Origin: Thiothrix unzii
GTDB taxonomy: Bacteria; Pseudomonadota; Gammaproteobacteria; Thiotrichales; Thiotrichaceae
NCBI RefSeq assembly: GCF_017901175.1
Contig: NZ_CP072793.1
Coordinates: forward strand, 2,356,001-2,420,000
Reading direction: 5' to 3'
DNA: 64,000 nt
Shown: piece by piece, positions 49,429 through 60,920 of the stretch
Position numbering within the stretch: the stretch's first letter is position 1
Layout: each line of letters starts with the position of its first letter
Translations under genes and position numbers: made by a program
The notes under the pieces: generated by a model
What the model saw: the letters and a program-made list of their open reading frames with translations, nothing else
Databases searched by the model: none
Told to the model about the DNA's origin: nothing

Positions 49429-52400
49429 TTAATCTTCCCGACGACGGCGGAAGAACGCCACAGTTGCCAGCAACATACTCATGATCGCCAAGCCCCACTC
49501 GCTGACGGTTGGGATTTGGACGTGTGGTACAAAGCCACAGTCAACACTGCGGTTGGTATTCGCGTCAGTATCGCCATCATCGGTTGGTTCCGCACCTGCT
49601 TTGAGGGTAAACAAAGCTGTCGAGCCGTCCGCCGCGCAGTTGCTGTCGTCATTAAATGGCTTGTCGTCAACGTCACCCGCATTTTTAGTAACGATATTAT
49701 ACAAGCTCGGCGGGATAGCTACGATGCGGTAATCGCCTTCCGTCAATTTATCAAAGAAGTAGCTACCATCCGGTTTTGTCACCTGCGTGGCTACCAGCTT
49801 ACCGTCTTTATCCAGTAACTTAACAGTCACGCCACCCAAACCCGGATCGCCCGGATCTTGCTTACCGTTACCGTCAAGGTCAACCCACATTTTGTCACCT
49901 ACACCGACCGTTTCCGGTGCAGCAGGTGGCGGCAGAACACCAAAGTCCAGCGTGAGATTAGAACGGTTATCGGCTGTACCCTTACCATCATCACCCGGAT
50001 TACCGCTGGCAGTATCGGCTTCAGCAGTTGGCTCACCTGCGCCCAAGGTAATTACTTTGGTGTTACAAATGCCGTATTGCAGGTCGTCGTCACCATTGTC
50101 GTTTTTATCCACATCCTCGTTCGGATCAAGCTCGTTACCACCGGTACTAGCGGTATAATTTGCCAGCAAACCAGTAGCCGCGAAGTTACCAGAAGCAATA
50201 CATACGCGGTAATCCCCTGCTTCCAAATTGTCGAATACATAGAAGCCATTGACGGTAGTGAGACTAGCAATGTTTTGCGGTGGCTCAGCGGTATTCCACA
50301 ATTCCATACGCACGCCGTCGACTACGGGTTTTTCACCAGCATCCATTTGACCGTTGTTGGCGTTGGCTGCTGTGCCGTTACCGTCGTCAATCCAGACTTT
50401 GTTGCCGAGACTGTGTTTGACTACCGGAGTCGGGGTTGGGTACATGCCGCAGTCAATCGTCAAATTGCCGTTAGCACCATCGCCGTCAACTTCCGGTTCC
50501 TGTCCCGCCATCAGGCTGAACGGTGCAGTACCGCCTAAATCCGCCTCACAATTGCTGTCGGTATTCGAGGCATTCGCATCGACATCACCGCCGGATTTTG
50601 TCAGGGTGTAACCTTCGGCTTGTACCTTAATGATGTATTCGCCTTCTGGCAAACCAGTGAACAAATACTTGCCATCCTCATCTGTGGTTTGTGACGGAAC
50701 AGCCATATCACCGTCGATCACCACAGGCGAACCGTCTTTATTCAGCAGCGTAACTTCCGCGCCTTTCAACGGTAACTCTTCAGGGTCTTGCAGCCCGTCT
50801 TTATCGGTGTCAATCCAGATGTAATCACCGATGTTAACGGTTTTCTTCGGTGGTGGCACAACCCCGAAGTCAATCGAGAGGTTGGAGCTATTATCGGGCG
50901 TAGATTTGCCGTCATCACCATCATTGTTATCAGTAAAGCCAAATTCTTTTAGCGGTTCCTGATCATTCAGTTCGGTCAGATTAGCGCAAATATCGCCCGT
51001 TACATCATCATCACCGTTGTCATCACCGTCGATGCCACGATTATCGTCACCACCGATGTCAGGATTTTCTTTTTGGTTCGCACCGGTACTGGGTAAGTAA
51101 CCTGCCAACTTGCCAGCAGCCGCGAAGTTTTCTGCCAAGAGGCACACTTGGTAACTGCCTGCGTCCAAACCGCTGAAGAGATAACGACCAGATGCATCGG
51201 TTTCAGTTTCATCGACTATTGTGCCGCCGTCATCTTTCAGGATGAGTTTGATGCCGAGAGCTACGCCGACTTCACCCGTATTTGCATCGCCGCTGTTGTT
51301 GGTGTCGATCCAGACGCGGTTGCCGATGCTGTAAGTAGGTGCGACTGTTGGAGCCAAACCGCAGTCTTGGGTCGGATCGTTGTCGGCGTTCGTGTCGCCA
51401 TCGTCAATTTCAGCACCGGCAGCAAGGATGATGCCGCTGATTTTGCCATCAGCGACGGCACAGTTGCTGTCAACTTTGGTATCAGTACCGTCCATAGGCT
51501 TGGTGAAGTCATAACCCGTGGGTTTGCTGACAACAATCTGGTATTCGCCAGCAGGAAGGTTGTCGAATTGGTAGAAACCGTCAACATCGGTAGGTTGTGC
51601 AACCACCGTTACGTCGTTCAGGTCTTTAACGGGGTTGCCGTTCTTATCGGTTAAGGTGACGATAACACCCGCAATGCCCTTTTCACCAGCATCTTGAATA
51701 CCATCTTTATCGGTATCTTCCCAAATGTAGTTGCCGACACTGACAGGTGTTGGAGGCACGACTTGTTTAACCAAACCGCAGTCCTGGGTCGGGTCGTTGT
51801 TGGCGTTATCGTCACCATCGTTGATTTCAGCACCAACAGTGAGGGCGATGCCGCTGATCTTGCCATCAGTAACAGCACAATTGCTGTCAATTTTGGTGTC
51901 AGTACCTTCGTTCACCTTGGTGAAGTCGTAGCCTGCGGGTTTGGTGACTTCGATGAGGTAGTCACCTTCAGGCAGGTTGACGAACTGGTAGTTGCCGTTA
52001 ACGTCAGTTTTTTGTGGGAGAACGTCTGCGTCGTTGATGTCTTTCGCAGTGCTGCCATCAGCTTTTTTGAGAGTAACAGTTACGTCTGCCAGTGGCTTAT
52101 CGGTTGCGCCGCCTTGTTTACCGTCGCCATCAACATCTTCCCAGATGGTGTCACCAACACTGACGGTCGGTGTAGGCAGTTTAACTAAACCGCAGTCTTG
52201 GGTTGGGTCGTTGTTGGCGTTGTCATCGCCGTCGTTGATTTCAGCACCAACACCCAGCGCGAACGCTGCGGTTTTGCCATCAGTGACGGCACAGTTGCTG
52301 TCAATTTTACCGTCAGCACCTTCGTTGGCTTTGGTGAAGTCATAACCAGCAGGCTTGGTGACTTCGATCAGGTAGTCACCTTCAGGCAGGTTGACGAACT

Positions 52401-54141
52401 GATAGTTGCCGTTAACGTCGGTTTTTTGTGGGAGAACGGCTGCGTCGTTGATGTCTTTGGCGATAGTACCATCAGCTTTTTTGAGGGTAACAGTTACGTC
52501 TGCCAGTGGCTTATCGGTTGCGCCGCCTTGTTTACCGTCGCCATCAACGTCTTCCCAGATGGTGTCACCAACACTGACGGTCGGTGTGGGCAGTTTAACT
52601 AAACCGCAGTCTTGGGTTGGGTCGTTGTTGGCGTTGTCGTCACCGTCGTTGATTTCCTCACCAACACCCAGCGCGAACGGTGCGGTTTTGCCATCGGTGA
52701 CCGCGCAATTGCTGTCAATTTTGGTGTCAGTACCTTCGTTCACCTTGGTGAAGTCGTGGCCTGCGGGTTTGGTGACTTCGATGAGGTAGTCACCTTCAGG
52801 CAGGTTGACGAACTGGTAGTTGCCGTTAACGTCAGTTTTTTGTGGGAGAACGTCTGCGTCGTTGATGTCTTTCGCAGTGCTGCCATCAGCTTTTTTGAGA
52901 GTAACAGTTACGTCTGCCAGTGGCTTATCGGTTGCGCCGCCTTGTTTACCGTCGCCATCAACATCTTCCCAGATGGTGTCACCAACACTGACGGTCGGTG
53001 TAGGCAGTTTAACTAAACCGCAGTCTTGGGTTGGGTCGTTGTTGGCGTTGTCATCGCCGTCGTTGATTTCAGCACCAACACCCAGCGCGAACGCTGCGGT
53101 TTTGCCATCAGTGACGGCACAGTTGCTGTCAATTTTACCGTCAGCACCTTCGTTGGCTTTGGTGAAGTCATAACCAGCAGGCTTGGTGACTTCGATCAGG
53201 TAGTCACCTTCAGGCAGGTTGACGAACTGATAGTTGCCGTTAACGTCGGTTTTTTGTGGGAGAACGGCTGCGTCGTTGATGTCTTTGGCGATAGTACCAT
53301 CAGCTTTTTTGAGGGTAACAGTTACGTCTGCCAGTGGCTTATCGGTTGCGCCGCCTTGTTTACCGTCGCCATCAACGTCTTCCCAGATGGTGTCACCAAC
53401 ACTGACGGTCGGCGGTGGGGGAAGTGTAACACCAAAATCTACAGTCAAATTCGAGCGATTATCCGGTGTACCCTGACCATCATCACCGTCAGTTATACCA
53501 GTAAAGCCAAGCTCATCCTCTGGCTCATTATCACCCAACGCTATCGCACTAGCGCAAATAATACCACCGACATTATCTTCGCCGTTATCAAGACCATCCA
53601 CGATGTTGTTTGGATCAGCAGTCTGCTTCGCGCCATCGCTGGGTAAATAGCCCTCCAGTTTACCACCAGCCGCGAAGTTTTCTGCAAGGATACATACTTG
53701 GTAATTACCTGCTGCCAAACCACTAAACAGGTAACGACCATCCGCATCGGTTTCAGTCGGGCTGCCTACTTGCGTACCTGCACCGTTTTTCAGAATAAGT
53801 TTAACGCCAGCACCCGCACCAACCTCGCCAGTGGTGGCATCACCACTATTGTCTGTGTCAATCCACACGCGGTTGCCGATGCTGTAAGTAGGAGTCGCCT
53901 CAATCGTCACCGGAGCGCAGGATTCGTCATTTTCCAGTGTTTTAGGAATGGCGTTAAACCCCGCCAATAACTCTGCCTCGGTTTTATTACTCGGCGTAGA
54001 GTTAACGTCTTGTTCATTAGCTTTGCTCACTTGAGCGCAGTTGGTAACAACGTCTGCTGCCCACGTTTGATTCATCGCGGACAAGACACCGACCGCACAA
54101 AAGGTCAGCAATAGAGGTTTCATACCTGTCATTTTTTTCAT
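49429..54141 (-). CDS. Large secreted SdrD-B repeat protein with IPTLxxWG C-terminal sorting signal
   Basis: A 1570-residue exported protein. Residues 1-29 form a signal peptide. About ten Cna-B/SdrD-B-like beta domains follow, each starting like SxGDxIWxDxDxDG and ending with a YxFxxLPxGxY strand. Domains 2-5 (residues about 245-797) are near-identical 138-residue units. Aspartate-rich turns suggest Ca binding. The C-terminus reads IPTVSEWGLAIMSMLLATVAFFRRRRED: an IPTxxEWG motif, a membrane helix and a basic tail, the layout of IPTLxxWG-CTERM proteins that are processed by exosortase XrtH. The protein is probably surface-anchored or released into the matrix. It lies 126 bases after the DUF11 gene and may be in the same operon. 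Confidence 0.88.
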   Translation of the reverse strand: MKKMTGMKPLLLTFCAVGVLSAMNQTWAADVVTNCAQVSKANEQDVNSTPSNKTEAELLAGFNAIPKTLENDESCAPVTIEATPTYSIGNRVWIDTDNSGDATTGEVGAGAGVKLILKNGAGTQVGSPTETDADGRYLFSGLAAGNYQVCILAENFAAGGKLEGYLPSDGAKQTADPNNIVDGLDNGEDNVGGIICASAIALGDNEPEDELGFTGITDGDDGQGTPDNRSNLTVDFGVTLPPPPTVSVGDTIWEDVDGDGKQGGATDKPLADVTVTLKKADGTIAKDINDAAVLPQKTDVNGNYQFVNLPEGDYLIEVTKPAGYDFTKANEGADGKIDSNCAVTDGKTAAFALGVGAEINDGDDNANNDPTQDCGLVKLPTPTVSVGDTIWEDVDGDGKQGGATDKPLADVTVTLKKADGSTAKDINDADVLPQKTDVNGNYQFVNLPEGDYLIEVTKPAGHDFTKVNEGTDTKIDSNCAVTDGKTAPFALGVGEEINDGDDNANNDPTQDCGLVKLPTPTVSVGDTIWEDVDGDGKQGGATDKPLADVTVTLKKADGTIAKDINDAAVLPQKTDVNGNYQFVNLPEGDYLIEVTKPAGYDFTKANEGADGKIDSNCAVTDGKTAAFALGVGAEINDGDDNANNDPTQDCGLVKLPTPTVSVGDTIWEDVDGDGKQGGATDKPLADVTVTLKKADGSTAKDINDADVLPQKTDVNGNYQFVNLPEGDYLIEVTKPAGYDFTKVNEGTDTKIDSNCAVTDGKISGIALTVGAEINDGDDNANNDPTQDCGLVKQVVPPTPVSVGNYIWEDTDKDGIQDAGEKGIAGVIVTLTDKNGNPVKDLNDVTVVAQPTDVDGFYQFDNLPAGEYQIVVSKPTGYDFTKPMDGTDTKVDSNCAVADGKISGIILAAGAEIDDGDTNADNDPTQDCGLAPTVAPTYSIGNRVWIDTNNSGDANTGEVGVALGIKLILKDDGGTIVDETETDASGRYLFSGLDAGSYQVCLLAENFAAAGKLAGYLPSTGANQKENPDIGGDDNRGIDGDDNGDDDVTGDICANLTELNDQEPLKEFGFTDNNDGDDGKSTPDNSSNLSIDFGVVPPPKKTVNIGDYIWIDTDKDGLQDPEELPLKGAEVTLLNKDGSPVVIDGDMAVPSQTTDEDGKYLFTGLPEGEYIIKVQAEGYTLTKSGGDVDANASNTDSNCEADLGGTAPFSLMAGQEPEVDGDGANGNLTIDCGMYPTPTPVVKHSLGNKVWIDDGNGTAANANNGQMDAGEKPVVDGVRMELWNTAEPPQNIASLTTVNGFYVFDNLEAGDYRVCIASGNFAATGLLANYTASTGGNELDPNEDVDKNDNGDDDLQYGICNTKVITLGAGEPTAEADTASGNPGDDGKGTADNRSNLTLDFGVLPPPAAPETVGVGDKMWVDLDGNGKQDPGDPGLGGVTVKLLDKDGKLVATQVTKPDGSYFFDKLTEGDYRIVAIPPSLYNIVTKNAGDVDDKPFNDDSNCAADGSTALFTLKAGAEPTDDGDTDANTNRSVDCGFVPHVQIPTVSEWGLAIMSMLLATVAFFRRRRED
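51753..53411 (-). repeat. Four tandem 414-bp repeats with an 828-bp higher-order duplication
   Basis: Within the SdrD-B gene, four units of exactly 414 bases (138 codons) are head to tail. Units 1 and 3 resemble each other more than units 2 and 4, and the segment 51886-52583 matches 52714-53411 nearly base for base (one difference noticed), so a two-unit block was recently duplicated. The array is prone to slippage and to collapse in assemblies. Confidence 0.85.
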
Positions 54142-54267
54142 TATGGTGGATCTCTTATTTTTTAGTTATTGCACCACGCCAACGCGCTCAACGCCGACAA
54201 TGCTTTAATCGGCTTAACCCTACCACAGGTCATGATAGGGCTGTATTAATTCCCGAAGAACGGTTTG

Positions 54268-54606
54268 TTAATTTATAACAGCGATAATTTTCAGGCTTTT
54301 TTGTTGGCCTGCCGCTAAATCGCCCACCACCCAAACACCCGTGGCATGGGTGTATTGGCCTGCTGGTTCATCGTCACTGATGTAGCTCAGACCCGTCGGC
54401 AGCAAGTCGGTAATGCTGACTGCTGTTGCCACCGCATCACCTTTGTTGGCGGCGACAATGGTGTATTCCACGGTGTCATTGCTAACTACGCGGGTTTTAT
54501 CCACGTTTTTGGTAACTTCCACGTCGGCGGCAGCGTGCGCGAAACCAGCCCCGCATAAGAGCAGCACACCCATGCATCCAATGATGCCTTGACGGTATTG
54601 TTTCAT
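54268..54606 (-). CDS. Stand-alone secreted DUF11 domain protein (112 aa)
   Basis: A signal peptide (residues 1-26, ending GFAHAAA) plus one DUF11 immunoglobulin-like domain: ADVEVTKNVDKTRVVSNDTVEYTIVAANKGD, AVSITDLLPTGLSYISDD, WVVGDLAAGQQKSLKIIAVIN. DUF11 domains normally occur as repeats inside large surface proteins, so a free one is uncommon. Very similar DUF11 domains end the two FGE-like proteins upstream. Its start overlaps the chitinase stop by four bases (ATGA), so the two are made together. The role is unknown; a subunit or cap of a surface structure is possible. Confidence 0.8.
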   Translation of the reverse strand: MKQYRQGIIGCMGVLLLCGAGFAHAAADVEVTKNVDKTRVVSNDTVEYTIVAANKGDAVATAVSITDLLPTGLSYISDDEPAGQYTHATGVWVVGDLAAGQQKSLKIIAVIN

Positions 54607-55802
54607 TGAGGGGTTGCTCCTGTGGCTAAAGCATTACGAATGCTGTGCATGATTTCACGGCGTTTGCTGCCGGTTTTTGCGGCGCGGTAATCCAGTTGTA
54701 AATGCCAGATCATTGCGCCACCAAGCTGCATTTTTTTCACGTATTGGATTTTCTCTGCCACAGCACGTGGATCATTAAACGATACGAATTGATCATCCGC
54801 ATCATTTTCCGCATCAATGCTGAGGTAGCCCATTTTCGCCACATCATCCCAACGGTATTGGCTTTGCTGATAGCGGTTATCCATCAATTGCGCATAACTT
54901 TCCAGCGGAGTTCCGGTTGTCCATTCCTGCGGTACGCTCGTCCATGTTTGAAACGGTGCGGTTGCGCCCCCGGTAGCTGTGCCACTACCGCCTTTCCAGA
55001 TGCGGATTTCAAAACTCATCCCTAAGCCCAATTTATCGCGGGGCACGCCCGCATCCAGCAATTGCTTGATGTAACCGTCCACCGATGACACTTTACCGCC
55101 GGTACTGGGGTAAGTTTTACCGCCGTCATACAAGGCCGCGTCATGCCAAGTAATGGCTTCGTTATGGGTTGCCATGTTGTAAAACATGATATTGATCTGA
55201 TCAATTTTGGTGTGTAAATGCGATAGCACGGTCTTGGCGCGGTAATCCGCAGCGACTGCCAATAACGGTGGACGCTGCAACAATGCCGAGGTCTTTTGCT
55301 GCATAGCCGTGTGCAACGCATTGATAAACAGCTCGTAATCCGCATTAGCGGTTTGCCCCCACGAGACAATCGGCTCAAGGTCAATATCCAAACCGTCGTA
55401 ACCCTCATCCAAACGCGCCAAAAGACTATCAATCAAAGCTTGACGCTTGAGCGGATCTGCTAATACGGGCTTGTGGATATTTTCCCACGCCACCACGCTG
55501 AACAATATCGGACGGTTTTTACTGTGCGCCAACGCTATCGCTTTTTGACGTTTGGTCGCGCCGATGCTGTTACCTGTATCCGTTAATGTTCCTGTACTGG
55601 GGTTAATTTCCGAAGCAAAGTGCACCACGTGAGTGAGCATTTCCCAATCGGCATCATCCATGTAAGCGGCATTACCCGCTCCGTCTTGGGTATAACCGGG
55701 CAAATAACCCGTTACCCAGGGCGCAGCAGCAATAGCAGGGCTTGCCCACGTTAACCAGCATAACCCGGCAAGGGCGCACGCTTTCATCCAAGGTGTTTTC
55801 AT
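54603..55802 (-). CDS. Secreted GH18 family glycoside hydrolase (chitinase-like)
   Basis: A 399-residue exported enzyme: signal peptide 1-26, then a TIM barrel of the GH18 type. The catalytic DxxDxDxE is D136-G-L-D-I-D-L-E143, so E143 is the acid. The strand-6 motif usually read as MxYD is MFYNM here, with Asn in place of Asp. A late conserved Trp is present (GAMIWHLQLD). There is no carbohydrate-binding module. Its one-base overlap with the 1169-aa gene before it and four-base overlap with the DUF11 gene after it suggest it works on a polymer of the same surface structure. The substrate (chitin, peptidoglycan-like or sheath glucosaminoglycan) is unknown. Confidence 0.88.
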   Translation of the reverse strand: MKTPWMKACALAGLCWLTWASPAIAAAPWVTGYLPGYTQDGAGNAAYMDDADWEMLTHVVHFASEINPSTGTLTDTGNSIGATKRQKAIALAHSKNRPILFSVVAWENIHKPVLADPLKRQALIDSLLARLDEGYDGLDIDLEPIVSWGQTANADYELFINALHTAMQQKTSALLQRPPLLAVAADYRAKTVLSHLHTKIDQINIMFYNMATHNEAITWHDAALYDGGKTYPSTGGKVSSVDGYIKQLLDAGVPRDKLGLGMSFEIRIWKGGSGTATGGATAPFQTWTSVPQEWTTGTPLESYAQLMDNRYQQSQYRWDDVAKMGYLSIDAENDADDQFVSFNDPRAVAEKIQYVKKMQLGGAMIWHLQLDYRAAKTGSKRREIMHSIRNALATGATPQ

Positions 55803-58800
55803 TAGTCAGCCCTCACCGTGATTTTTAATTTAACCGGAACGCCATTGGCAACTTTGCCAACCAGCCAGATACCGCTGGTTGCGTCGTAACTGCCGCGTTC
55901 GGCTTGGCTGCTCACGTAACTTAATCCCGCTGGCAGCAGATCTTTCACCTGTACATCATTGGCATCATCCGGGCCTTTATTCGTCAAAGTCAGGGTGTAA
56001 ACCAAGGTGTCACCACGCTTGATAGTATTCACACTGGCGGTTTTGACCAATTCCAAGTCGATTTGAGGCGGGGTCGCGCAGTTCGCACCCAAAGATACAC
56101 CGTCTTCATCATTGCCCGGATTTTGATCTGTACCGGTTAAGGCAGATACCTTGGCTTTATTGGTCACAGTTGCACACGTTGGCGGTGGTGCGGAACACGG
56201 TGCGGGTGGCGTCAATGCGACATTATTCAACTGACAGGCGGCTTTATTACTATCCGTCAGCGTGGCATTCACCGCACCACCACTGATTAGAAAGTTACCG
56301 TAAGTACCCGCTTCCACCCCATAAGGCACGTCTTGCACCGCCAATGTACCCGCCTGAATATCGTAGGTGGGGGCAACAAACGTGCCGGAGGTGTTGATGC
56401 GGAAACCAAACGTATCATCCGCCGTACTGCTCGTACCGTTGCTGTAGCATTGTGTTGTTACCGTCGGCGCATTGATCGTGCAATTCCCTTCCAATGGATT
56501 CAACACACTGACCGACACCGAACTATCACCAACAATCGTGACCGAAGCAGGAGTAATCACCGCCGTGCCATAGCTGTAACCTGCTGGCGGTGCTGGCTGC
56601 GTTGGTTCTGTCACAGTACAGGTTGTACCGTGGGGAATATTGCTGATGGTTTTGTTTTCAGCCGCTTTAATTAGCACATCCTGATCAAAGCTGTTATCTG
56701 AACAGTCTACGTGCAAGGTGTAATCAGGGCTGGTAAATCCAGCGGGCTGCCCACTTACCGATTTACCCAACTGCAAACTACCCTGCTTTAGGGTTAATGG
56801 ATTAGTCACCGTCACCGCAACGGTTGTGCCCGTACTAATAGTCTGCTCACCACTGGGCGTAATAACAGGCGTGCCATAATCATAACCTGCGGGTGCGGCT
56901 GGCACGGTTGGCTCTGTCACAGTACACGTCGTGCCAGTCGGAATACTGTTAATGGTTGCAGTAGCACCATCAGCAACCGTCAATGTCTGGTCGAAACTAT
57001 CCACGGAACAATCCACCACCACCGAAAAATCAGGGCTGGTGAAACTGGCGGGCTTACCCGTTACCGCTTTCGTGACACTCAATGAACCCGTCGGCGCGGC
57101 GGTAACACTCAACGGTGTTGACCCTGAACACGTTTGCCCCGCGACCGTGGTACTAGCTGTTACCGTTGCATTTCCGGTTGCACTGGGTGTGCCAGATACC
57201 ACACCCGTTCCCGCATTAACGTTCATTCCTGTGGGTAATCCGGCAGTGCTCCATGTATAAGTGTATGGCCCTCCGCTACTGGCATTCGCTGACGGACTCG
57301 CATTGTAAGCCACACCCACCGTGCCATTCGGTAACGGATTCGGGGTGACGGTAATCGTCGGGCAACTCACCGAATTAAGTGGGTTTGTTACCACTATTTC
57401 TGTTGTCGTATTCGCCACAATCGTCTGCGCACCACTCGGCGCAATCGCAGGTGTGCCGTATTCGTAGCCTGCGGGTGCGGTTGGTAATGGCGTAGTTTCC
57501 GTCACACTACACGTCGTACCCGCAGGAATCCCGGTAATGTCGCGTGTTGCACCATGCGCTAACGTAAAGTTTTGATCGAAAGTGTTATTCGAGCAATCTA
57601 CCGCTATATTGAAATCAGGGCTGGTAAATCCTGCCGGAGGATTCGTCACCGTTTTGCGCACCCGTAACGTACCTGTCGGCGAACAACTACCCGTATCGCT
57701 CACCGTCGCCGTGCGTGTACAACTGCTACTAGTCGCGTCTGTCGCGGTCAGGGTGTAAACCGTACCATTGCCTGCCGAACCATTTTGTAACCGAAAATTC
57801 GTTGCTGCTCCATAACTACCAGAAGTTGGGGTCAGTACCCCACTGTTATTGGCCGATAAGTTGTAGGTCGCGGCAACGCCTGTTCCTGATAAATTCAAGC
57901 TAAAGGTACGGTAATCATCGGCGGCTGTTCCGGCTGTTCCATTGTTATTACAAGCAGATGTGACTGTGAAACTATTGATGGAACAAGCCGCTTGCAAAGG
58001 ATTCGTAACGGTAACAGCTACCGTTGTCGCATTCCCTACCGTAACGGATGCCGGGCTATAAACCGGTGTACCGTAAGTGTAACCTGCTGGCGCACCTGAG
58101 GGTGCTGCCTCACTGACCGTACAGGAAGTCCCTTGCGGAATGAAATCTGAAGTGTAGGTTTGATTGTGCCGAAGTACGAACGTCTTATCGTATAACGTGC
58201 CTGTACAATCTAACGTAATGGTGAAGTTTCTCGTACTATCCGTACCCCCAGTCACCTGTTTGGTGACACTAACCCTGCCTGATGGCTGGGTAACGCCCAT
58301 CCATACACGGTAGCCAATACTCAAGTAACGCCGACTAGCATCCAAGCTCTGACGTACTGTCTTATGTGAGTCAGACAGATTGCTAAATGCCGATGCACCA
58401 CGCAGAATGGTTGTTGCTGTATCACCGGGATTCAGGGTGGTTTCGTGCCGGTTTCCCCCAAAGTCATAAATTCCCCAAGGATTGCCAGTTTCCTGACCGA
58501 CTTGAGCATAAAGCCCACCTTCACCATGCCCAAACACCCCCGTTAATGCACCACCAACAGAACCATTACTGGAACTATAATGCATCCCACTGTTTGGATC
58601 AGAAACTGCCAATGGAGGAGTAGAACTTCCTAACGGATAATTATTGTAAGTATTGGTAGTCCCTGTTCTTCGGTACATGGCTTTGTAAAGCTCATCTTCC
58701 AAAGGTAAGCGCGGCCCCGGATAAGCACCATTGAAAGAGGCAATTGGCCAGTTACCTTTTGGCCCGCCATTATTAGTAAATGTAAAGGCCCCAGAGTCAA

Positions 58801-59311
58801 TGCTACCCGTTGCCATCCAGTTCAGATAACGTGCAACGTTATTTAGCGATCGCCAATCAACAGGAAGCTTTGCTGCATCCGATGCGCTGAGGCTCATACC
58901 ATTTTGGTTAAACGACGTTACTTGCCAACTACCACCTGAATAGGCAAAAGGCGAATAACACCAAGGGTTATCACAATCTGAATGATTAGGATCCATCGGC
59001 CCTAAACCTAGGTCATTAGACCCTGTCACACCGATGTCATTCAAAAAATCAACCCAGTCTTGCACCGTAATCTGAGTCGCGCTCACCATATAGGAGTAAG
59101 ACACCCCACCATACCCCGTCGAATCATCAGCATTACCCGGATTATCGACCACCACAAAATTATTGGCATATGAAGGTGTTGGAACACCCGATGGCGGCGT
59201 ATACGAAGCAGCATTCCCATCGCGGACTGCCGTCAATACCGAACCCAAAAATAGCAATAAAAAGCCTATTTTTATTACGCGTCTGAATTCAAACTCTAAT
59301 TGTTTTAACAA
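55802..59311 (-). CDS. Secreted FGE-like/DUF5979/DUF11 multidomain protein (1169 aa)
   Basis: Starts at TTG 59311, eight bases after GAGGGG. Residues 1-35 are a signal peptide. A formylglycine-generating-enzyme-like (SUMF1) domain spans about 60-340 (TQITVQDWVDFLN, PRLPLEDELYKAMY, GNPWGIYDFGGNRHET, TILRGASAF, GYRVWMG). The two catalytic cysteines expected near its end are absent; a C113-x4-C118 pair lies elsewhere. Four DUF5979-like domains follow (345-438, 548-645, 742-839, 843-940), with an Ig-like putative He_PIG domain at 650-735. An unnamed cysteine-containing module occurs twice (about 441-545 and 942-1040). The protein ends in a DUF11 domain (1083-1165). No C-terminal anchor is visible. 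Confidence 0.85.
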   Translation of the reverse strand: MLKQLEFEFRRVIKIGFLLLFLGSVLTAVRDGNAASYTPPSGVPTPSYANNFVVVDNPGNADDSTGYGGVSYSYMVSATQITVQDWVDFLNDIGVTGSNDLGLGPMDPNHSDCDNPWCYSPFAYSGGSWQVTSFNQNGMSLSASDAAKLPVDWRSLNNVARYLNWMATGSIDSGAFTFTNNGGPKGNWPIASFNGAYPGPRLPLEDELYKAMYRRTGTTNTYNNYPLGSSTPPLAVSDPNSGMHYSSSNGSVGGALTGVFGHGEGGLYAQVGQETGNPWGIYDFGGNRHETTLNPGDTATTILRGASAFSNLSDSHKTVRQSLDASRRYLSIGYRVWMGVTQPSGRVSVTKQVTGGTDSTRNFTITLDCTGTLYDKTFVLRHNQTYTSDFIPQGTSCTVSEAAPSGAPAGYTYGTPVYSPASVTVGNATTVAVTVTNPLQAACSINSFTVTSACNNNGTAGTAADDYRTFSLNLSGTGVAATYNLSANNSGVLTPTSGSYGAATNFRLQNGSAGNGTVYTLTATDATSSSCTRTATVSDTGSCSPTGTLRVRKTVTNPPAGFTSPDFNIAVDCSNNTFDQNFTLAHGATRDITGIPAGTTCSVTETTPLPTAPAGYEYGTPAIAPSGAQTIVANTTTEIVVTNPLNSVSCPTITVTPNPLPNGTVGVAYNASPSANASSGGPYTYTWSTAGLPTGMNVNAGTGVVSGTPSATGNATVTASTTVAGQTCSGSTPLSVTAAPTGSLSVTKAVTGKPASFTSPDFSVVVDCSVDSFDQTLTVADGATATINSIPTGTTCTVTEPTVPAAPAGYDYGTPVITPSGEQTISTGTTVAVTVTNPLTLKQGSLQLGKSVSGQPAGFTSPDYTLHVDCSDNSFDQDVLIKAAENKTISNIPHGTTCTVTEPTQPAPPAGYSYGTAVITPASVTIVGDSSVSVSVLNPLEGNCTINAPTVTTQCYSNGTSSTADDTFGFRINTSGTFVAPTYDIQAGTLAVQDVPYGVEAGTYGNFLISGGAVNATLTDSNKAACQLNNVALTPPAPCSAPPPTCATVTNKAKVSALTGTDQNPGNDEDGVSLGANCATPPQIDLELVKTASVNTIKRGDTLVYTLTLTNKGPDDANDVQVKDLLPAGLSYVSSQAERGSYDATSGIWLVGKVANGVPVKLKITVRAD

Positions 59312-59348
59312 AGCGATTACCCCTCTAATAACGCCGCCACTATTTTTA

Positions 59349-60920
59349 TTAATCGACTGTCACATCAATCGTCAACGTCACCACATCATCTTTTGCTAAC
59401 GCCCCGACAGTCCAGCCCCCTGTATTCTTGTCATACGCACCCTTAAGTGTCGCATGAGTACTATACGTAACCCCGGCTGGCAACTGATCCGTTACCTCCA
59501 CACCCGTCGCTGCTCCCGGCCCTTTGTTAGTCAGCGTAATGGTGTAACGCACGGTATCACCTGATACGACATTCGGCTTATCTGCTACTTTGGTGATTTC
59601 CAAATCGACATTCTGTGCGGCGACTGGCTGCAACGTGTTAGTAACGGTAACGATTTTCGGATTATTTTCTTCAATCGTCACCGTTTGCCCCGGTGCGTAT
59701 TGCGCCGCGCTGTAGGTAAATCCTGTTGGAGCCGTTGGTGTAACTTCGGTCACTGTACACTGTGTTCCCACAGGCATGGCATCGGATTCATAGGTTTCAT
59801 TGTGTTTAACAAGGATGCCATTTTTGTCGAAATTATTATCCGTACAATCCAGATTGAAGCTGAATGATTGCGTATCTGTGCCGTTTGCCACCACTTTTTT
59901 GATATGTAACACCCCAGAAGGTGCGGAAACCCCCATCCACACCCGATAACCGATACTCACATAGCGGTTGCCTGCCGCTAAAGTATCGCGAAAATCATAC
60001 TTTGATGCAGACACCGCTCCAAATGCCGCTGCGCCACGTAAAATGGTCGTGGTGGGTGCACTAGGCTCTAAGGTGGTTTCATGGCGATTGCCCGCCGTAT
60101 CACGCACTTCCCACGGGTTGCCAGTTTCTTGCCCCACTTGTGCATAGTGCTTAGTGCCACCATAACCCGGAATCAATGCGCCACCCGCATTACTGTTATG
60201 AATACCACTGGCATCAATTCCAGCCAATACTGGCGTACCATCTCCCTGTACGTTATTAGTGGGATAATCGTTATACGCTTGCTTTGCCTTATCCCAGAAC
60301 ATAGCCTTATATAACTCGTCTTCCAACGGCAAACGTGGCCCAGGATAGTTCGCATCAAAACTGGTAATGGTCGCGTTGCCAGAGGTCGTGTCACTGAAGG
60401 TAAAAGCCCCTTGGTTAATATTCCCGGTCGCCAACCAGTTCATGTAGCGAGCCACCATATTCAAAGACAACCAATCAATCGGTAATTTCGCCGCTTCTGC
60501 CGCTGACATCGCCATACCATCTTCGTTAAACGGTGTCACACTCCAAGTACCGCCACTGTGGGTGTACGCCGCAAAACAGAAGTCATTGCCGCAACTTGCC
60601 CCAATCGGTCCAAACCCCATCGAATTACCCGGGTCAACAGCATTCAGGAACGCCACCCAGTCGCCCACGGTAATTTGCGTCTGACTGACGCGGTACTTAT
60701 ACCCCACACCACCATAGTTACCTACACGGTTATCATCAGGATTACCTGCATCATCAATCACCACAAAACTATCGGCAAATGACGGTTTTGGCACACCAGC
60801 AGGCAAGGTCATAGAATCAAGTGCATACGCGGACGAACTGCCCACAAACAGCATTGCCGCACACACACCGATAGCGAAGGATGAGCGTTGCAACGCCTGT
60901 GATTGGTTGATCGTTTTCAT
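59349..60920 (-). CDS. Secreted FGE-like/DUF5979/DUF11 protein (523 aa)
   Basis: A smaller paralogue of the next gene. It has a signal peptide 1-34, an FGE-like domain at about 60-330 with the same signatures (TQITVGDWVAFLN, PRLPLEDELYKAMF, GNPWEVRDTAGNRHETT, TILRGAAAF, GYRVWMGV), one DUF5979-like domain (336-430) and a C-terminal DUF11 domain (438-521). The catalytic cysteines of true FGE are missing, while C110-x4-C115 matches the paralogue's C-x4-C. First gene of the five-gene minus-strand group, 37 bases before the paralogue. AGGGG lies six bases before the ATG. The 220 bases upstream hold the likely promoter. Confidence 0.85.
   Translation of the reverse strand: MKTINQSQALQRSSFAIGVCAAMLFVGSSSAYALDSMTLPAGVPKPSFADSFVVIDDAGNPDDNRVGNYGGVGYKYRVSQTQITVGDWVAFLNAVDPGNSMGFGPIGASCGNDFCFAAYTHSGGTWSVTPFNEDGMAMSAAEAAKLPIDWLSLNMVARYMNWLATGNINQGAFTFSDTTSGNATITSFDANYPGPRLPLEDELYKAMFWDKAKQAYNDYPTNNVQGDGTPVLAGIDASGIHNSNAGGALIPGYGGTKHYAQVGQETGNPWEVRDTAGNRHETTLEPSAPTTTILRGAAAFGAVSASKYDFRDTLAAGNRYVSIGYRVWMGVSAPSGVLHIKKVVANGTDTQSFSFNLDCTDNNFDKNGILVKHNETYESDAMPVGTQCTVTEVTPTAPTGFTYSAAQYAPGQTVTIEENNPKIVTVTNTLQPVAAQNVDLEITKVADKPNVVSGDTVRYTITLTNKGPGAATGVEVTDQLPAGVTYSTHATLKGAYDKNTGGWTVGALAKDDVVTLTIDVTVD

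Follow-up and report, generated by a model that had tools for sequence, protein, structure and literature searches.

What joins exported proteins that are encoded side by side into one surface structure? The question is raised by five consecutive genes of Thiothrix unzii, which lie in the 64,000-nucleotide stretch of DNA analysed here (the window; contig NZ_CP072793.1, positions 2,356,001 to 2,420,000) and which an initial annotation, made from the sequence alone, had read as a surface or matrix assembly system. That general reading is well supported, and the putative joining device can now be named: two halves of a DUF11 domain, carried by different proteins. Three features had been overlooked: the DUF11 domains of three of the proteins end at model position 83–84, the missing end stands at the mature N terminus of the largest protein (the giant), and the genome encodes the exosortase XrtH. 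From the sequences, we consider it likely that the locus specifies a surface chain whose members are linked covalently, through split, self-ligating DUF11 halves.

Truncated DUF11 domains at protein C termini

The Pfam model of DUF11 has 114 positions, and the three copies at the locus, in proteins of 523, 1169 and 112 amino acids (aa), stop at 83–84. These C-terminal matches (E = 9.3e-25, 3e-24 and 2.6e-23, respectively) score 82.9–87.6 bits against a curated cut-off of 24.6, and cover just positions 1–84. As judged by alignment, the Lys that forms the bond and the catalytic Asp are both retained in each copy, whereas the last two strands, with the Asn, are missing. We refer to such a copy as an acceptor half and to the absent strands as the donor half. 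A complete DUF11 domain with its partner Asn in the same chain was therefore not found in these proteins; the Asn is on the donor protein.

The T. unzii genome has 32 DUF11 matches in total, and 12 acceptors aligned from it share the same end point, the last one with two extra residues. Among the matches listed, DUF11 was found in 16 of 16 genomes of the genus. Across 797 open reading frames (ORFs) from this genome and from genus loci picked for DUF11 or GH18, 72 copies in 72 proteins are C-terminal and break off at the truncation point, as against 25 internal ones, a count made with a model that was built from 12 truncated copies and so does not define the tail. The Pfam span of the C-terminal copies is 1 to 85/87, with the stop often just inside the match, and internal copies reach about 100–114. 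Fourteen of the 25 internal copies lie in linker proteins of ~500 aa, and behind each comes a tail that reads N-x-A-E-I...DSTP...EDD. Two more (loci L024 and L075) have the tail and no bond residues, Lys, Asp and Asn being absent together, and the remaining nine are partial or weak matches.

Elsewhere in the genome, four acceptor genes stand in tandem (L019:3089-14055; 873, 1010, 875 and 808 aa), with SdrD-B and DUF11 ends. Another acceptor gene (L018:4395-7418) looks broken by a transposase-bearing insertion, with ORFs of 145 and 156 aa between its halves.

The missing strands on other proteins

The giant starts, directly after its signal peptide, with the two strands that the acceptors lack. 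The homology was traced in steps. A profile of 15 internal tails matched every one of the 14 linkers at its N terminus (E ≤ 1.1), in 11 cases with a better value than any of 7970 shuffled proteins. A second profile, built from those 14 N termini, then matched seven giants below 1e-4 (2.5e-17 for the giant in the window and 3.8e-17 for its counterpart in genome G003) and two more weakly, and it matched the internal tails in return (best E of 4.9e-4, versus 0.18 for the best shuffle). By pattern, 29 N-terminal donors were collected, from 14 linkers and 15 giants; an Asn, a Cys, a Val and a second Cys are invariant among them, the pattern itself having demanded Asn-Cys and the Val. By eye, the donor Asn lies within a few residues of an [AST]-x-A type cleavage site, and a plain A-x-A rule accounts for just some of the set.

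When the N terminus of the giant was appended to the 112-aa acceptor, the Pfam DUF11 match extended from position 83 to 107 and rose from 84.2 to 90.6 bits, as compared with 85.2 bits for another N terminus and 86.5 bits for the reversed donor. With three further acceptor/donor pairs, the appended match reached 107–113. In a decoy test scored with a model of 15 complete DUF11 domains, 11 of them viral, 40 donors beat 632 control segments on average with each of three acceptors (p = 8e-4, 2e-7 and 6e-21). The viral scans yielded two distinct contigs, which served solely as alignment rows. One IMG/VR contig (L140) encodes a protein with about a dozen complete DUF11 repeats, which mostly keep Lys, Asp and Asn. 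At the level of sequence, the locus presents one feature of donor-strand fibres, an incomplete immunoglobulin (Ig)-like domain and a matching N-terminal donor.

Two other explanations of the split can be weighed at this point. The window has the 112-aa gene and the gene of the giant in the same frame, with 126 bases between them, as in a relic of gene fission, in which the leftover parts of a split DUF11 protein no longer bind each other or the stop is read through. We regard such a relic as highly improbable: five in-frame stops separate the two genes, both products have signal peptides, the gap in G003 is 125 bases, so that the frame is not kept, and the same split recurs in many other proteins. 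The stops, the two signal peptides and the frame in G003 rule out a single split or frameshifted gene. The second explanation takes the truncated domain for a tag that a secretion machine recognizes for export or sorting, comparable to the C-terminal domains on cargo of type IX secretion. It would suit the strict placement of this domain at the C terminus of many large, mutually unrelated exported proteins and the existence of a bare, 112-aa copy. It would account poorly for the retained isopeptide residues, for the missing piece on neighbouring proteins and for the complete DUF11 that the linkers themselves also hold, and we consider it improbable.

Isopeptide residues and a predicted intermolecular bond

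The accessible part of PMC12617251 reports a DUF11 crystal structure (PDB 9IFR), renames the domain CLIPPER, and describes a Lys715–Asn806 isopeptide bond with Asp748 as the catalytic residue. In alignment with 9IFR, the 112-aa protein places Lys33 at the Lys of that chain and Asp67 at an Asp whose number, if the Lys is counted as 715, differs by one from the published one. The Lys is found in 71 of 72 acceptors and the Asp in 70, with Glu in the other two. The Lys–Asn spacing is 91–95 in 12 of the 14 complete linker copies and 91 in 9IFR. Because DUF11 is a proven isopeptide domain, the halves look like a natural split, self-ligating pair, and because the domain is divided between proteins, the bond is predicted to be intermolecular.

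These observations suggest the following arrangement. An acceptor protein, ending in a DUF11 domain without its last two strands, and a donor protein, starting with those strands once its signal peptide is removed, would join in trans by donor-strand complementation with a hairpin. Joining would put the acceptor Lys next to the donor Asn and beside the acceptor Asp, and an isopeptide bond could then form spontaneously between the two chains. Acceptor-only proteins would be tips (FGE-like here, mostly other large exported proteins in relatives), and proteins with both halves would extend the chain, as the ~500-aa linker may do in relatives and perhaps the 1169-aa protein here. The donor-only giant with its IPTL signal, processed by XrtH, would be the anchor. 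Docking, bond formation, the chain itself, the roles of tip and anchor and the route of export are all predictions.

All of the sequence evidence for a split would stand equally if the halves docked as subunits of other donor-strand fibres do, through strand complementation and with no isopeptide bond in trans, and some DUF11 domains are without the bond, according to the same accessible part of PMC12617251. However, a Lys in all but one acceptor, an Asp or Glu in all 72 and an Asn in every donor found would be needless for docking alone. We therefore regard a non-covalent fibre as rather unlikely.

Several results weigh against the covalent chain. The internal-tail profile matched no giant, and six short-form giant N termini, gathered by the pattern that already required Asn-Cys, were missed by the linker-donor model. 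In the decoy test, the best of the 632 controls outscore all 40 donors. The 1169-aa protein and several others of the genome carry a donor-like piece before the acceptor in one chain, where it could act within that chain; in the 1169-aa protein, this segment matches at E = 0.45 with the internal-tail model and at 0.16 with the linker N-terminus model. Genome G000 has at least 12 acceptors and only two clear N-terminal donors, and acceptors outnumber donors in the T. unzii genome. One locus (L017) has an acceptor 3′ of the giant, and acceptors of genus g6 stand beside IPTL proteins with no N-terminal donor (L153 and L158, in fragmented assemblies). AlphaFold2 (AF2) did not dock the halves either: with acceptor, intergenic read-through tether and donor in one chain, the donor was left helical with a low per-residue confidence score (pLDDT), and in the C terminus of the 1169-aa protein it formed just two short strands at a pLDDT of about 37–52, although both jobs were weak tests of docking, without donor rows of the right kind. 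The acceptor itself folded confidently in both, mostly at a pLDDT of 90–97 in the first, and the donor was placed in neither. A Foldseek search with the acceptor model returned 9ifr as the top match (E = 4.4e-4). The IPTL proteins of L153 and L158 begin VDHGDAP.

The locus in its genus and among known systems

Genes at the loci of the genus fall into three classes: acceptor only, donor plus acceptor (the ~500-aa linker) and donor plus IPTL-CTERM (the giant). Acceptors or linkers lie 5′ of the giant in 13 of the 14 loci in which a complete giant has such neighbours. The giant adjoins leuC, or is one or two short ORFs away, in G000, G003, G001, G010, G015, G009 and G041, which identifies the locus in the window as the conserved one of the genus, with FGE-like, GH18 and bare-DUF11 genes replacing the linker.

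Donor matches were obtained in 16 of 16 genomes of the genus, in six of nine of the sister genus g5 and in none of 38 other genomes of the family, with a model whose rows came from 15 of the 16 genus genomes and from no g5 genome. XrtH is encoded in all 22 donor-bearing genomes, as compared with 36 of 63 in the family, the set that an order-wide search for donors took in as well. The giant carries IPTL-CTERM, and the T. unzii genome encodes one XrtH (E = 1.7e-60) and has four IPTL-CTERM matches. Across the class (369 genomes), the donor model matched six, two of them in the family. Among the four others, the match in G162 falls in an evident DUF11-repeat protein from an unrelated family, in which the 29-donor model finds four tails (best E of 5e-6); that in G400 resembles the final part of a complete DUF11, and the remaining two are G100 and G305. 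A plasmid search with a linker query gave eight records, which matched only at the DUF11 end, none covering 80%.

Nine control loci were taken from donor-less genomes of the family. Four proteins in them (two at L193, one each at L194 and L201) have a last DUF11 that retains its tail and is followed by an apparent sorting signal. At L196 and L197, proteins end in a truncated Ig-like domain resembling the second design described below; at L195, DUF11 lies inside the protein. The other three loci with a match were irrelevant or cut.

The second design consists of ~345-aa proteins whose N terminus reads I-x-N-x-A-x-I-x-Y and whose C terminus is a truncated DUF11 (...TATVN or a similar sequence). 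It is present in other genera of the family and, in other families, at 15 loci that were opened across the class; an alignment of five examples shows no variation at the N-terminal Asn or at the C-terminal Lys and Asp. These proteins adjoin a ~1550-aa protein with a like-reading N terminus, for which a weak Porin_4 match suggests a possible outer-membrane barrel. A class search for this design matched 42 of 369 genomes, many via the DUF11 part only. By its sequences, it appears to be a more divergent version of the same split logic.

A broader generalization, tentative and in our view just short of an even chance, is that covalent chains of mixed subunits are assembled by a naturally split Ig domain that ligates itself, with neither sortase nor usher, from many alternative tips, one linker and one exosortase-anchored base, and that a more divergent version with an N-terminal hairpin and a C-terminal acceptor, ending in a presumed outer-membrane barrel protein, extends across other families of the class. 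If so, bacteria would have evolved the split-isopeptide trick that engineers made as SpyTag/SpyCatcher, locking unlike surface proteins together. Throughout a genus, C-terminal DUF11 copies would gain a function, Gram-negative fibres a new assembly principle with XrtH giants as bases, and biotechnology a ready-made set of natural tag/catcher pairs.

Table 1. Features of the five-gene locus (window positions) and location of the second design.
Feature	Position	Strand	Remark
523-aa exported protein	59349..60920	-	FGE-like, DUF5979, C-terminal truncated DUF11; acceptor only; candidate tip
1169-aa exported protein	55802..59311	-	TTG start; FGE-like, DUF5979 x4, He_PIG, donor-like segment, C-terminal truncated DUF11
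GH18 enzyme, 399 aa, exported	54603..55802	-	Outside the conserved core
112-aa protein	54268..54606	-	Signal peptide and bare acceptor half
1570-aa SdrD-B giant	49429..54141	-	Signal peptide, N-terminal donor half, SdrD-B repeats, IPTL-CTERM
Acceptor half of 523-aa protein	59352..59606	-	DUF11 model positions 1-84 of 114, then stop
Acceptor half of 1169-aa protein	55805..56059	-	DUF11 model positions 1-84 of 114, then stop
Donor-like segment of 1169-aa protein (VTNKAKV...)	56096..56179	-	Directly before its own acceptor; weak tail-model match, by eye
Donor half of giant	53902..54054	-	Missing DUF11 end, residues 30-80; Asn34 predicted bond partner
IPTL-CTERM sorting signal of giant	49438..49515	-	Presumed XrtH substrate
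Second-design gene sets	L149-L151, L159, L163-L177; own genome L022:9379-18041		N-x-A hairpin, truncated C-terminal Ig-like domain

An ORF check returned the five consecutive minus-strand genes at the positions described before (Table 1), with real overlaps of 1 base at 55802 and 4 bases at 54603–54606, and by eye each protein starts with a signal-peptide-like segment, in agreement with the claim that all are exported. That the overlapping genes yield their products in set proportions, as the initial annotation proposed, is conjecture. Pfam bears out the DUF11 ends of the FGE-like and small proteins and the SdrD_B (10 stretches) and IPTL-CTERM of the giant, and NCBIfam concurs on DUF11 and IPTL. 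DUF5979 is found in one stretch of the 523-aa protein and four of the 1169-aa protein. Their FGE-like matches are weak (28.6 and 26.3 bits; cut-off 23.3), and by eye no Cys is seen in the C-terminal part of this weakly matched region; formylglycine-generating enzymes have catalytic Cys residues. The cluster is flanked by leuC-leuD-leuB-asd-fimV on one side and by an acyltransferase/AMP-ligase gene on the other.

The initial annotation had further proposed that the five products form a layer and that the GH18 enzyme trims the polymer to which they attach. In favour are the co-location, the overlapping genes and an enzyme (Pfam E = 1.2e-39) that looks intact by eye, its DGLDIDLE fitting DxxDxDxE, the catalytic consensus of GH18. 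However, GH18 stands beside DUF11, and FGE-like genes occur in the locus, in only two of 16 species, so that neither a polymer-trimming hydrolase nor the FGE-like genes belong to the core; we give the layer with its trimming enzyme very little credence. The complete set occurs in one of 15 other genomes of the genus, G003, likewise between leuC and the acyltransferase gene. The exact gene set is thus not conserved beyond two species, whereas the split-DUF11 core is genus-wide. A GH18 relative is present in 15 of 16 genus genomes, with no DUF11 beside it in 18 of 19 relatives' loci opened (from 14 other genomes), G003 alone having one there. In 35 scanned loci, mostly DUF11 loci of relatives, FGE-like and GH18 genes occurred only at the T. 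unzii locus, G003 being one further case. A scan of genome contigs with the GH18 protein gave one Massilia locus at 26% identity, which was uninformative. A cluster of pilin-like genes (L016:5439-13804) encodes a further, third FGE-like/DUF5979 protein, of 1567 aa and lacking a DUF11 end; it neighbours a 1220-aa protein with a similar C terminus and is perhaps related to type IV pili.

In chaperone-usher pili and other donor-strand fibres, an incomplete Ig-like fold is completed by the N-terminal extension of the next subunit. The split DUF11 shares this plan; it differs in that two strands would be donated and the isopeptide residues are kept. With XrtH/IPTL-CTERM surface proteins, the giant shares the IPTL signal and the presence of XrtH in its genome, and joining by a split domain is not part of that definition. 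In titles and abstracts of the open-licence literature, no description of a split DUF11 was found; other DUF11 papers, in their accessible parts, treat F-ENA anchors and a grappling-hook protein. The acceptors have the fold, Lys and Asp of DUF11/CLIPPER (PF01345; 9IFR), with the Asn in the missing piece at equal spacing. By contrast, the published bond, as far as the accessible text describes it, lies within one chain, and the Asn-bearing strands here sit on another protein. A natural autocatalytic intermolecular isopeptide bond is attributed to sporesilk fibres (Remaut et al. 2025, as cited in the accessible part of PMC12617251); those fibres are on spores and, unlike the DUF11 pair, have an alpha-helical hairpin fold. 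A parallel in logic is offered by SpyTag/SpyCatcher and other engineered split isopeptide domains, in which the catcher holds the Lys and the catalytic acid and the tag supplies the partner residue. SpyTag/SpyCatcher was engineered, in the accessible accounts, from CnaB-type domains, whereas the putative pair described here is natural and of DUF11 type, with a two-strand hairpin bearing a Cys pair as its donor.

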